DNA of 64,000 nucleotides from positions 1 to 64,000 of the forward strand of contig JANWJS010000029.1 of assembly GCA_025451845.1 (NCBI GenBank), read 5' to 3'. The position numbers were made by a program, and so were the translations under genes. The notes under the pieces were generated by a model. The model was given only the letters and a program-made list of their open reading frames with translations. It made no database searches and was not told the DNA's origin. Source of the DNA: Steroidobacteraceae bacterium. Lineage in GTDB: Bacteria > Pseudomonadota > Gammaproteobacteria > Steroidobacterales > Steroidobacteraceae. Position 1 is the stretch's first letter. The number at the start of each line of letters is the position of its first letter. Positions 5,204 through 13,380 of this stretch are shown piece after piece.

Positions 5204-6139
5204 CTAAGGCTGGCTGTCCAACGCGGTCTTCTTGACCGTCGGGAAGATGTGCTCGGCCGTCAGACCGCACTCCAGCGCGACCGCGCTCGAGATGTAGATC
5301 GACGAGTACGTGCCGGCCAGGATGCCGATGAGGAGCGCTTCCGAGAAGCCCTTGAGAACGGGGCCGCCCAGGACCAGCAGCGCCACCACCACGATAGCCG
5401 TCACGAACTTCGTCATGATGGTTCGCGATAGCGTCTGGTTGATCGACTGATCGAGCACGGTGTTCGGTGCCAGCCGGCGGTTGCTCTCGAAACGCTCGCG
5501 AATCCGGTCGAACACCACCACCGTGTCGTTCAGCGAGTAGCCGATGACGGCGAGGATGGCTGCGACCACCGACAGATCGAAGGACGTCTGCGACGCCGCG
5601 AACCAGCCGAGGACCAGGATCGGGTCGTGCAGCACGGCAAGAATCGCTCCGAACGACAGCCGCCACGTATGAAAGCGCAGGGCGATGTAGCCGAAGATCA
5701 GGAGCAGAGTGAAAAACAGCGACCACGCGGCGCTGACCTCGAGCTCGCTGCCTACCTGCGGGCCGACTACGGCGAGCTGCTGTACCGCGGCCCCGGGATT
5801 GACCGCTCGCAGGGCGCTCTCCACGCGGTCATGGATGACTTGGCCGCTGACCTTCGGCTCGGGCGGCAGGCGGATCGCGACGACGCGCGAGGAGCCGACG
5901 TTCTGCACCTGCGGATCGTGGAAGCCGGCGGCTGCGAGTTGGGAGCGTACCGCGCCCAAATCCACGGTGGCCGGGAAGCTGGCTTGGGCGCTCACCCCGC
6001 CCGTGAAGTCGATGGCGAGATTGAGGCCGCGGGTGAAGAGCATCACGACGGAGGCGATCATGAGGATCGCGGACAGGCCATACCACACATGCCGTGTGGC
6101 CATGAACTTGAAATCGGTTTGGTGACTGAAAAATTCCAC
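5204..6139 (-). CDS. secF: Protein translocase subunit SecF
   Basis: A 311-residue inner-membrane protein with six predicted transmembrane segments. With SecD it forms the proton-driven accessory complex that pulls proteins out of SecYEG on the periplasmic side. The N-terminal membrane segment is followed by GLNLAIDFTGG, the SecF signature, a periplasmic domain, and the RND-type membrane block with YSLNDTVVVFDRIRE, typical of SecF. It lies 42 bases downstream of secD and ends the queA-tgt-yajC-secD-secF operon. The C terminus FPTVKKTALDSQP is slightly shorter than in E. coli, which is normal outside Enterobacteria. Confidence 0.97.
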   Translation of the reverse strand: MEFFSHQTDFKFMATRHVWYGLSAILMIASVVMLFTRGLNLAIDFTGGVSAQASFPATVDLGAVRSQLAAAGFHDPQVQNVGSSRVVAIRLPPEPKVSGQVIHDRVESALRAVNPGAAVQQLAVVGPQVGSELEVSAAWSLFFTLLLIFGYIALRFHTWRLSFGAILAVLHDPILVLGWFAASQTSFDLSVVAAILAVIGYSLNDTVVVFDRIRERFESNRRLAPNTVLDQSINQTLSRTIMTKFVTAIVVVALLVLGGPVLKGFSEALLIGILAGTYSSIYISSAVALECGLTAEHIFPTVKKTALDSQP

Positions 6140-6181
6140 GAGAGAGTCCTGGCGACCGGCCCGGGCCGGCCCGATGTTTAG

Positions 6182-8062
6182 TTATATCGGCAGCCGGGCG
6201 ACTTTGCGCTTGCGGCCGTACATGAGGGTGACGAGCGCGCGGCTGCCCATGAGAGAGGTGAACATGGAGGTGGCGATGCCGAGCGTCAGCACCACGGCGA
6301 ACCCGCGGATCGCTCCCGTGCCGAACACCCAGAGCACGATGCCTGCGAAGAACGTCGTGACGTTGGAATCGGCGATGGCGGAGAAGGCCTTCTCGAAGCC
6401 CGCGCGGATCGCCGCCTGCGGTGTGACCCCCTTGCGCAGCTCCTCGCGGATGCGCTCGTAGATCAGCACGTTGGCATCCACCGCGATACCCACGGTGAGG
6501 ATGATGCCCGCGATGCCGGGCAGCGACAGCGACGCGCCCATCATGGAAAGGAGCGCCGTGAGCAGGATCACGTTCGCCACCAGCACGAGGTCCGCCACGA
6601 GGCCGAACACCTTGTAGTAGATCAACATGAAGCCGAGCACGCCCGCCATGCCGATGATGAGGGCGTCGATGCCCATCCTGATGTTTTCCTTGCCGAGACT
6701 GGGGCCGATCACCTGCTCGTTGACCAGGAAGATCGACGCCGGCAGCGACCCGGAGCGCAGAAGAATGGACAGGTCCTGGGCCTCTCCCGAGCTCAGGCCC
6801 GTGATCTCGAAGCGATCGCCGAAGACGCCCTGGATCGTGGCGTCATTGACGACGCGCTGGGTGGTGACCTCGTGCACGACCTTCTTGCCGTTGCGGGTCG
6901 AGGTCTCCTGATGCTTTTCGATCAGGACGACGGCCATGCGCTTGCCGACGTTCTGCCGCGTGGTACGCATCATGTTGTCGCCGGCCTTGCTGTTGAGCGT
7001 CACATCGACGGCCGGGCCTTGTTGGCCCTGGCCGACGGTCGCGTTGGTGAGCTGATCGCCCGTGGCGATCACCTCGCGCTTGAGCAGCACCGGCCCGCCC
7101 ATGGCGGTATTCGTGTAGAGCTTGTCGCCCAACGGAACATCGCCCGTCTGCGCCGCCTGGATCGCGTTGGCCGTCTCGTCGTTCAGGCGGAACTCGAGCT
7201 GCGCGATCTGCCCCAGGAGATTCTTCACCTCGGCGGCGTTCTGCACGCCCGGCAGCTGCACGTCGATCCGGTCCACGCCCTGGCGCTGCACCTTGGGCTC
7301 GGAGACGCCGAGCTGGTTGACACGGTTCCTCAGGGTGGTGACGCTCTGCTCGATCGCGTAGTCCTCACGCTGCTTGACCTGCGCAGGCGACATCGCGGCG
7401 ATGAGCAGCTGGCTGCCATCCGCGCCGCTCTGCTTCGTGATCGTCAGGCCTTGCAGAGGCGAAATGAGCGCCTGTTGCGCGCCAGCCAGGTCGATACCCG
7501 GAGCAAATGCGATCTGAATCGCATTCTGCAGCTGGCTGTCGCCCGTCGTAGTAAACCTGATGTTACGCACGGGGATCTTGGCGGCCGCGAGCGCCCGCGC
7601 GGAGTCCTGCAGATAGTTCTGCAGCATCTGCGCGACCGAGCTGTTGGTATCCACCTGGTAGAGGAGATCGAGCCCGCCGCGCAAATCGAGGCCGAGCGGC
7701 ATCGGCTTGAGGCCGAGGGCCCGGAAGAACGCCGGCGCGCGCGACACGAGAGACAGGGCGGAGATGTAAGTGCCCTGGTATTTGGCGTTGGCGATATCGT
7801 TCGCCTTGAACTGGTCCGAACTGTCAGCGAACTCCACCATCAGACGGCCGCTGCCATCGACGTAAGCGCGCGTGAGACTCACCCGCTGCGCCCGCAAATA
7901 GTCCGCGATCGCAGCAGCCTCCGCAGACGTGACCGGCGAATGGTCCCGGTGGGCAAGCTGCAGCGCGGGCGCCAAGCCGAATATGTTCGGCAGCGCGAAG
8001 ATCATCGCCACCAGCAGCACGGCGACGATGAGGATGTATTTCCAGCGAGCGTACTCGAGCAT
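6182..8062 (-). CDS. secD: Protein translocase subunit SecD
   Basis: A 626-residue inner-membrane protein. One N-terminal membrane helix (residues about 9-28) is followed by the large periplasmic P1 domain and the RND-like six-helix block. Signatures: MPLGLDLRGGLDLLYQVD (D1 motif), the repeated SEPKVQRQGVDRIDVQLPG, and GIAVDANVLIYERIREELRKG in the membrane domain, which carries the conserved Asp used in proton coupling. It starts with ATG, 3 bases after the yajC stop, and is followed by secF. Length and order match the proteobacterial Sec operon. Confidence 0.97.
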   Translation of the reverse strand: MLEYARWKYILIVAVLLVAMIFALPNIFGLAPALQLAHRDHSPVTSAEAAAIADYLRAQRVSLTRAYVDGSGRLMVEFADSSDQFKANDIANAKYQGTYISALSLVSRAPAFFRALGLKPMPLGLDLRGGLDLLYQVDTNSSVAQMLQNYLQDSARALAAAKIPVRNIRFTTTGDSQLQNAIQIAFAPGIDLAGAQQALISPLQGLTITKQSGADGSQLLIAAMSPAQVKQREDYAIEQSVTTLRNRVNQLGVSEPKVQRQGVDRIDVQLPGVQNAAEVKNLLGQIAQLEFRLNDETANAIQAAQTGDVPLGDKLYTNTAMGGPVLLKREVIATGDQLTNATVGQGQQGPAVDVTLNSKAGDNMMRTTRQNVGKRMAVVLIEKHQETSTRNGKKVVHEVTTQRVVNDATIQGVFGDRFEITGLSSGEAQDLSILLRSGSLPASIFLVNEQVIGPSLGKENIRMGIDALIIGMAGVLGFMLIYYKVFGLVADLVLVANVILLTALLSMMGASLSLPGIAGIILTVGIAVDANVLIYERIREELRKGVTPQAAIRAGFEKAFSAIADSNVTTFFAGIVLWVFGTGAIRGFAVVLTLGIATSMFTSLMGSRALVTLMYGRKRKVARLPI

Positions 8063-8065
8063 GAG

Positions 8066-8398
8066 TCAGGCGCTCTTCAGGGTGCCCTTCGGCATGAGGG
8101 CGCTCACCTGGAATTTCTGCACCTTGATGCGCACGCCATCGGCGACCTCCAGGGTGACGAAGCTCTCGCCGACCTCGGTGATCTTCCCGAGCATTCCCCC
8201 GTTGGTCACCACTTCATCGCCCACGGACAGCTTGGAGACGAGCTGCTGATGCTCCTTGGATTTCTTCTGCTGCGGGCGCATCAGCAGGAAGTAGAAGATG
8301 ACGATGAAGACCACCATCACCAGGAGCGGCGCGAACTGGCCGCTGCTCGAAGCCGCCTGCGCGCCCTGCGCCCAGGCTGGAGGAATCAATGAATTCAT
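8066..8398 (-). CDS. yajC: Preprotein translocase accessory subunit YajC
   Basis: A 110-residue single-span membrane protein associated with SecDF. The N terminus MNSLIPPAWAQGAQAAS is followed by the membrane helix (FAPLLVMVVFIVIFYFLLM) and the family motif RPQQKKSKEHQ, then a small soluble domain with LSVGDEVVTNGGMLGKI. It lies between tgt (60 bases upstream) and secD (3 bases downstream), as in most Proteobacteria. Confidence 0.96.
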   Translation of the reverse strand: MNSLIPPAWAQGAQAASSSGQFAPLLVMVVFIVIFYFLLMRPQQKKSKEHQQLVSKLSVGDEVVTNGGMLGKITEVGESFVTLEVADGVRIKVQKFQVSALMPKGTLKSA

Positions 8399-8458
8399 GC
8401 GCTCACCAGTAGGGAAGTTACGCTCGGGCCACCGTGGGCCGGGAGCGAAAAGCGCGCA

Positions 8459-10689
<2,231 letters not shown>

Positions 10690-13040: not shown

Positions 13041-13046
13041 TATACT
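13041..13046 (+). promoter_or_regulatory. Probable -10 element of the tRNA-Leu gene
   Basis: TATACT lies 10 bases upstream of the first nucleotide of the tRNA, a spacing typical of stable-RNA promoters. No good -35 match was seen at 16-18 bases upstream, so the call rests on the -10 hexamer and its position. Confidence 0.45.
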
Positions 13047-13056
13047 TGCCCTTCGT

Positions 13057-13380
13057 GCCCGAGTGGCGGAATTGGTAGACGCAGCGGACTCAGACCATTT
13101 TCAGTTGAGCCCCCGGGGAGAAATCCCCAGGGTGAAGCCCGTCAAAGTCGGTAGAGGCCCTGAAGCGAGCCGCTTCGAGCTAATGCCGAGCCAAGTCCTG
13201 GAGTTTCCGGGGAAGGTGTAGAGAGCAGACGGCGGGCACCTAAGGCTGCAAGGCTACGGTGAAGGCGTGCTCCAGCCCACGAACCCCGCGGGACCACCGT
13301 GCGGGGCGGCGAAAGCCGCAGCGGGATGAAAATCCGCCGCCGTTAAAAGCGTGTCGGTTCGACTCCGACCTCGGGCACCA
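13057..13380 (+). tRNA. tRNA-Leu (anticodon read as CAA) interrupted by a group I intron
   Basis: The exons are 13057-13091 and 13329-13380. Joined, they give an 87-nt class II tRNA with an encoded CCA end. The acceptor stem GCCCGAG pairs perfectly with CTCGGGC; the D arm (GCG/CGC with AATTGGTAGA) and T arm (GTCGG, TTCGACT, CCGAC) are complete; the long variable arm (13338-13352) marks a Leu/Ser-type tRNA, and GGCGGAATTGGTAGAC with discriminator A is typical of Leu. The anticodon stem GCGGA/TCCGC is split: the first exon ends after C32-T33-C34 and the second begins with AAAA, giving loop CTCAAAA and anticodon CAA. The intron sits between positions 34 and 35, the site used in cyanobacterial tRNA-Leu(UAA). 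The gene is intact rather than broken, because the intron has a full ribozyme core. Confidence 0.93.
13092..13328 (+). ncRNA. Group I self-splicing intron (Azoarcus-like, small type) in tRNA-Leu
   Basis: This 237-nt insertion has the paired elements of a group I ribozyme. P3: GCCC-GTC (13137-13143) with GAC-ggc-GGGC (13228-13237). P4: TCGG(T) (13148-13152) with GCCGA (13185-13189). P5: a hairpin, GAAGCG/CGCTTC (13162-13176). P6: CCTGG/CCGGG. P7: GAGCA (13223-13227) with TGCTC (13268-13272). P9: a hairpin capped by a GAAA tetraloop (13306-13319). The strings GCCGAGCCAAG and AAGGTGTAGAGA resemble, from memory, the Azoarcus tRNA-Ile intron, whose P7 is GACUA/UAGUC, so P7 and P3 show compensatory changes. 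The intron ends in G (13328), the required omega-G. It has no endonuclease reading frame. The 5' splice site would follow a C paired with G in P1 instead of the usual U-G pair. Confidence 0.92.

Follow-up and report, generated by a model that had tools for sequence, protein, structure and literature searches.

A tRNA-Leu(CAA) gene interrupted by a 237-nt insert occupies positions 13057-13380 on the forward strand of the window (the whole 64-kb stretch of DNA analysed), where ARAGORN, run with introns allowed, places the intron from tRNA position 36. A sequence-only reading of this DNA had described a tRNA-Leu gene with an insert of this length at 13092-13328, and these borders are borne out by ARAGORN and by the empty sites of congeners. 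Joining 13057-13091 to 13329-13380 gives the complete 87-nt tRNA, CCA included, that had been claimed, and the insert does end in G (13328). The leucine type likewise holds, with the anticodon (CAA) and the C-G pair at the 5' splice site as additions to that reading. Its expectation that default gene finders miss the gene proved correct, as ARAGORN run without introns returns no tRNA anywhere in the 64-kb window and the interrupted gene is not among the 40 tRNAs that RF00005 finds in the window's own genome. With introns allowed, ARAGORN produces false calls (tRNA-His in L013, tRNA-Trp in L026) and was therefore not relied on alone. We regard the presence of a group I intron in this gene as near certain. 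The features of the locus are the following (R2 is a covariance model introduced below; introns of tRNA-Leu(CAA) and tRNA-Leu(UAA) are termed CAA and UAA introns):

13041-13046, + strand: TATACT, a -10-like element 10 nt upstream of the tRNA (sequence reading)
13057-13091, + strand: 5' exon of tRNA-Leu(CAA), last base C34 (ARAGORN; empty site in eight congeners)
13089-13091, + strand: P1 exon strand CUC, C13091 (C34) predicted to pair with G13107 (exon CTC and guide TTGAG in 81 of 81 CAA introns)
13092-13328, + strand: group I intron, 237 nt, between C34 and A35 (RF00028, ARAGORN, R2; empty sites)
13105-13109, + strand: internal guide sequence UUGAG (all 81 distinct CAA introns)
13112-13132, + strand: predicted P2 hairpin, 13112-13119 with 13124-13132 (minimum-energy fold alone)
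13137-13143, + strand: P3 5' strand, partner 13231-13237 (96.6% of cells paired, three pairs changed on both sides)
13148-13189, + strand: P4 (13148-13153 with 13184-13189) and P5 (13156-13165 with 13173-13181) (90.2% paired, eight pairs changed on both sides)
13190-13217, + strand: P6 (13190-13192 with 13215-13217) and P6a (13196-13200 with 13208-13212) (98.6% and 87.0% paired)
13223-13227, + strand: P7 5' strand GAGCA, partner UGCUC at 13268-13272; guanosine-binding helix, pseudoknot with P3 (100% paired)
13238-13260, + strand: P8 hairpin (three helices, 100%, 90.7% and 75.6% paired)
13284-13319, + strand: predicted P9-like hairpin (13284-13305) and GAAA hairpin (13306-13319) (minimum-energy fold alone)
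13328, + strand: terminal (omega) G (last base G in 98 of 98 introns of the first set)
13329-13380, + strand: 3' exon of tRNA-Leu(CAA), CCA encoded (ARAGORN; intron-less alleles)

A consensus scan at the gene found neither a full promoter nor a terminator; of 27 congeneric loci, some with and some without the intron, 22 have TATACT or TATAAT 8-23 nt before the tRNA. The motif GCAGCGG, which repeats exon letters and precedes the final four bases of the intron, was considered as a structural element and rejected for want of conservation. Upstream of the tRNA, on the minus strand (5204-10689), lies a queA-tgt-yajC-secD-secF cluster, four of its five genes being named from Pfam and secF from position and translation alone.

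Group I core and covarying pairings

The Rfam group I model RF00028, named by the sequence-only reading as the check on the insert, does align over the full model to 13082-13275, but at 22.8 bits (E 0.0012 in a 551-base scan) against a gathering score of 50, and at the gathering score it finds nothing in the window. As Rfam alone thus left the matter undecided, we built two covariance models, R1 from 96 cores of CAA and UAA introns including the window intron, and R2 from 41 UAA and Arg(CCU) introns, which include the UAA intron of the window's own genome and no CAA intron. The sole match of R2 in the 64-kb window is at 13135-13275 (112.3 bits, E 4.2e-27), inside the insert, and in controls this model matched all eight intron-bearing loci and none of ten intron-less loci (from eight genomes). 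The P3 to P8 and P4-P6 domains of a group I core are present in the window intron, in line with the core that had been read from the sequence.

Across 93 distinct cores 93.1% of 3,807 cells pair, compared to a shuffled mean of 82.4% and at most 43.5% for slid structures, with wider variation in P5, P6a and P8. Changes on both sides were found in 25 of the 41 core pairs, including three of the five in P7; the changed cells are not independent and represent few events, since many of them mirror one split between two families (18 versus 75 rows). The count of further pair types was not above that of shuffles (reached by 99 of 500). Paired changes in P3 and P7 had been claimed relative to the Azoarcus tRNA-Ile intron; they are found relative to the UAA and Arg introns, the comparison made here in place of the Azoarcus intron itself.

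Intron-bearing and intron-less genes

A search of 60 related genomes, of which 37 belong to the genus (own genome included), recovered a full intron-bearing gene in 23 of the 37, own genome included, with the same insertion base in all 23. Eight congeners (G002, G003, G005, G010, G014, G018, G022 and G035) carry the gene without the intron, and neither form was found in G009, G011, G013, G017, G021 and G030 in this search. At the insertion site the intron-less gene has the sequence CTCAAAAT, which is the product expected from excision of 13092-13328, and 83-86 of its 87 exon letters are identical to those of the window gene; four of the eight stop short of an encoded CCA, which explains three of their letter differences. 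At this tRNA, CCA is encoded in the window and some congeners and absent from L006, L007, L011, L029, L030, L031 and L043. An assembly chimera might be suspected in a draft genome of 58 contigs, but it is scarcely conceivable given that the full gene is interrupted at the same base in 23 genomes of the genus and also in the isolates Cupriavidus basilensis KF708 and Acidovorax soli DSM 25157.

In a SecD tree of 24 near-complete genes from 30 genomes, 23 of them with a known state (17 with and six without the intron), intron presence needs four changes, and well-supported branches force three for the intron-less group; the own genome (intron-bearing) and G035 (intron-less) are sisters with support of 99/98. 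secD and the intron-less gene lie on one contig in seven of the eight genomes (exception G022), which supports a syntenic position of the empty sites. An ECF sigma gene adjoins two of eight intron-less, four of eight own-genus intron-bearing and none of six other-order genes, while the other three neighbour proteins tested gave zero matches in these 22 loci, most of which have at most 1.5 kb of flank.

The intron-less G022 (L025 1-141) and the intron-bearing G023 (L012) are identical over the 141 bases that end at the splice site and diverge downstream, a pattern that could reflect a recent gain, a loss, an island event or an assembly effect. In G012 a further fragment, made up of intron and 3' exon, lies at a contig end (G012:C547:4767-4927), in addition to a whole gene. 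Downstream of the intron-less gene of G005 lie three repeats of the segment that runs from its anticodon stem to CCA (L046 1513, 6211, 12190 and 18018), resembling the traces that stacked genomic islands would leave; genes between the repeats include, by Pfam, a TOTE-type primase-helicase, a Fic protein and a subtilase, and no integrase was detected among seven ORFs scanned. The intron would split the putative attachment core repeated in G005. Among the long repeats listed, two of eight intron-less and none of 23 intron-bearing genomes are represented (p 0.06).

The CAA intron recurs in Burkholderiales, Lysobacterales and Steroidobacterales. A pattern scan of genome contigs, in which TTGAGC was required, yielded 101 stretches, of which 80 were examined; ARAGORN identified tRNA-Leu(CAA) with an intron in 74 of these, several belonging to the own genus. 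A further three (L125, L142 and L156) show the start of the intron in a stretch cut at its end, and L133, L179 and L183 were set aside as apparent chance pattern matches. Hosts include Bordetella, Burkholderia, Caballeronia, Cupriavidus, Mycetohabitans, Pusillimonas, Acidovorax, Comamonas, Polaromonas and Variovorax, as well as Rhodanobacter, Pseudoxanthomonas and the endosymbionts Ca. Vallotia. One 4.8-kb contig labelled Mycobacterium (L140) has tRNA-Leu(CAA) with the intron and exons matching Rhodanobacter genes, and is probably misbinned.

Group I introns in gammaproteobacterial tRNA genes had been described as rarely reported, a view at odds with the R1 matches in 133 of 296 genomes sampled from the own order (tRNA-Leu(UAA) and tRNA-Ile2 introns included) and with the occurrence of the CAA intron in several orders. 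Of these order matches, 30 were made into loci, comprising 14 CAA introns, all from the own genus and scoring at least 135.7 bits, two own-genus UAA introns and 14 introns from outside the genus, all of them UAA; among the matches listed, none outside the genus exceeds 110.8 bits. The 14 usable loci from weaker matches include 11 tRNA-Ile2 genes with an intron after CAU and one tRNA-Leu(UAA) gene (L353), and RF00028 finds nothing in L342 and L352. In an even sample of the phylum, R1 matches were obtained in 45 of 397 genomes, with CAA introns recognised in the own genome, G413, G062 and G431; most other places opened are UAA, Arg(CCU) and CAU genes, some being without a gene or ill-named by ARAGORN, in a tally that leaves out four listed places (G321, G445, G207 and G351). 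UAA introns of the genus include two long examples of 703 nt (L120 1622-2411, G005:C65) and 334 nt (L121, G016:C109), the 18 others being 229-286 nt.

The base pair at the 5' splice site

Each of the 81 distinct CAA introns follows an exon ending in CUC, with C34 facing G as a Watson-Crick pair, whereas all 48 distinct UAA introns follow an exon ending in CUU, with U34 facing G as U.G. The UAA introns have the guide TTGAG in 46 of 48 cases, the other two having TCGAG and GTGAG. The pattern requiring TTGAGC supplied 55 of the 81 CAA introns, and the 26 that were unselected for this motif (23 own-genus introns found by DNA similarity and three found by R1) have it without exception. The U.G pair, a near-universal trait of group I introns at the 5' splice site, is therefore absent from the window intron, and a C-G pair at this site in CAA introns is very likely. 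A change in J4/5 was considered as an adaptation to the C-G pair and rejected, as the 23 own-genus introns are divided between AGA (13) and GAA (10), and GAA also predominates in CAA introns outside the genus, giving no clear link.

The C-G pair would disappear if the true splice site lay one base away from C34. A cut after A35 gives an identical product sequence, but it would leave A as the last intron base in place of the G found in 98 of 98 introns, while a cut after U33 would put the anticodon GAA on a leucine tRNA. Since the UAA relatives obtain both U.G and the terminal G when cut after position 34, we consider a displaced site very unlikely.

To our knowledge, wobble geometry at the 5' splice site is held to be essential for site choice. 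Two group I introns with C.G at this site, reportedly mitochondrial, were described by Hur and Waring in 1995, to go by the title of their paper; these share the C-G pair but are two introns, while here it is the rule for an 81-sequence bacterial clade. According to the accessible part of PMC11915505, the last exon base U pairs with G as a rule, and 15 exceptions among tmRNA introns pair C with A. Those tmRNA introns resemble the present ones as bacterial structural-RNA introns with C before the splice site, the difference being that the exceptions form a wobble of C with A and the CAA introns pair C with G. A standing C-G 5' splice site in a bacterial clade was not encountered in the literature surveyed, including the portion of PMC11915505 available.

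The window intron resembles the tRNA-Leu(UAA) introns analysed in its insertion between positions 34 and 35, its guide UUGAG (as in 46 of 48 UAA introns), its shared core and its terminal G, and differs from them in the host anticodon CAA and in having C-G in place of U.G; its P7 (GAGCA/UGCUC) is common only to a subset of UAA introns. A gammaproteobacterial tRNA-Leu(UAA) intron is said to have been reported by Vepritskiy et al. in 2002, and the Azoarcus tRNA-Ile2(CAU) gene carries a group I intron. Introns of tRNA-Ile2(CAU) are likewise group I introns in the anticodon loop of a bacterial tRNA that tRNA finders miss, but they sit after the CAU anticodon with U at the exon end, whereas the window intron sits after C34 of CAA. 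The available excerpts record group I introns of tRNA-Leu(UAA) in cyanobacteria and plastids (PMC4476775) and tRNA-Ile2(CAU) introns in Acidovorax and Burkholderia (tRNAscan-SE 2.0, PMC8450103). A group I intron in a bacterial tRNA-Leu(CAA) is unreported in the partly accessible literature surveyed (including PMC8450103, PMC3984707, PMC6125680, PMC4033280, PMC11782384, PMC11915505 and PMC6468297), which is weak evidence of novelty as subscription papers fall mostly outside it.

With the present intron, tRNA-Leu(CAA) joins the few host genes known for bacterial tRNA introns. The CAA intron is widespread in the well-studied Burkholderiales, yet it is missed by ARAGORN without introns and by RF00005, and the window copy falls below the Rfam gathering score. 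The 81 putative ribozymes break the U.G rule in one way beside UAA relatives that keep it, so that the role of the wobble can be tested by comparison.

Likely origin of the intron and probable dependence on splicing

A phylogenetic tree was inferred from 133 introns, after exclusion of two UAA rows whose introns are longer than 300 nt, a row whose tRNA was unclear and 16 others that were long or ill-named, the GAGCA-type UAA intron L236 being one of these 16. The 81 CAA introns form one clade (99/95), nested in a clade supported at 100/100 together with six UAA introns of P7 GAGCA, and a separate clade (100/100) unites 29 UAA introns of P7 GACUU, none of which comes from outside the own order. 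A quick tree of 149 rows that includes the 16 again recovered the CAA introns as one clade (93). The idea that the UAA intron of the genus itself gave rise to the CAA intron was rejected, as P3 and P7 differ and the tree separates the two, with the caveat that a clade of CAA and GACUU-type UAA introns is rejected at the border only (AU p 0.0505). A one-clade test of the own-genus CAA introns was ill posed, the other rows being congeners under other names.

UAA introns branch first within the GAGCA clade (support 94/54 and 96/73), which favours movement from UAA to CAA, and one jump from tRNA-Leu(UAA) into tRNA-Leu(CAA) is the likely course of events, in a direction that is favoured rather than proven. 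The converse, an ancestral CAA intron that moved to tRNA-Leu(UAA), or separate gains of both from a third gene, is compatible with a test in which holding the GAGCA-type UAA introns together was not rejected (AU p 0.108). However, the clade is surrounded by UAA introns of other core types, its earliest branches (moderately supported) are UAA introns as well, and U.G is the usual state; we therefore consider these alternatives unlikely, though of appreciable weight. For the favoured jump from tRNA-Leu(UAA), G413 and G431 each hold both CAA and UAA introns of the GAGCA type, so that one genome can contain donor and target together. The guide UUGAG complements CUCAA exactly and CUUAA with a wobble, thereby offering a simple reverse-splicing route. 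An intron has here likely moved from one tRNA gene to another, the two anticodon loops being distinguished by a single base at the site.

Exons of the window gene share 83-87 of 87 letters with own-genus genes, 71-77 with those of Burkholderiales and 78 with most of those of Lysobacterales. This far better match within the genus suggests that the intron probably arrived without an accompanying tRNA gene. A Pseudoxanthomonas gene (L192, Lysobacterales) shares 83 and L199 shares 84 of 87 exon letters with the own gene, and transfer of a whole tRNA gene from a source like one of these would be a less probable alternative.

We propose that the transcript folds so that the guide UUGAG (13105-13109) pairs with C32-U33-C34, and that an external guanosine bound in P7 would attack after C34. 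C34 would in turn attack after the terminal G13328, joining CUC to AAAAU, and ligation would restore the anticodon loop CUCAAAA, the guide being the exact complement of the joined exon CUCAA. A UAA intron may have entered tRNA-Leu(CAA) once by reverse splicing with its guide unchanged, and because the guide stayed the same the splice-site pair would have become C34-G. The CAA intron would then have spread, being gained or lost repeatedly, through Burkholderiales, Lysobacterales and the own genus.

In the own genome, every tRNA found for UUA, UUG or AUA contains an intron. The leucine tRNAs among the 40 RF00005 finds read UAG, GAG and CAG, and the sole tRNA-Leu(UAA) found carries a 262-nt group I intron of P7 GACUU (G000:C44:6-354; L088, L119). 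The third R1 match in this genome is a group I intron of about 280 nt after CAU in tRNA-Ile2(CAU) (G000:C20:196257-196540; L276 2234-2587; RF00028 55.3 bits), a gene that ARAGORN misnames tRNA-Gln and whose exons were identified by eye; the two other CAU genes are presumably the initiator and elongator methionine tRNAs, judging from their usual sequence. The UAA and Ile2 introns lie outside the window and were beyond the reach of the sequence-only reading. Given the lack of intron-less tRNAs for these three codons, it is very likely that splicing is required, and the genome is 97.08% complete by its record, making an overlooked intron-less copy unlikely.

In vivo excision of the tRNA-Leu(CAA) intron is accordingly to be regarded as very likely on sequence grounds. 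Decay of the intron, with the tRNA gene a pseudogene, would accord with the below-gathering RF00028 score, and a tRNA reading UAA could in principle decode UUG by wobble. Such decay is nevertheless highly improbable, as the core and P7 pairing are intact and covarying, the exons of intron-bearing congeners are as conserved as those of intron-less ones (83-87 versus 83-86 of 87), the tRNA-Leu(UAA) gene is itself intron-bearing, and window ORFs use UUG for 134 of their 15,443 codons. Our explanation as a whole, a working group I ribozyme in the sole tRNA-Leu(CAA) found, derived from a UAA intron and later spread, is held with high confidence. Evenly balanced, in our judgement, is the bolder proposal that the clade fixed C-G as its site signal after a reverse-splicing jump from the UUA- to the UUG-reading tRNA, and that this genome can decode UUA, UUG and AUA only by virtue of three separate self-splicing introns; if true, the ribozyme must pick its site without wobble geometry. 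The three intron-bearing tRNAs decode uncommon codons, with UUA, UUG and AUA at 0.6, 8.7 and 2.3 per thousand in 27 window ORFs, which were chosen by base composition alone and of which a few are perhaps not genes. The reduced endosymbionts Ca. Vallotia (L161, L189 and L200) retain the CAA intron.
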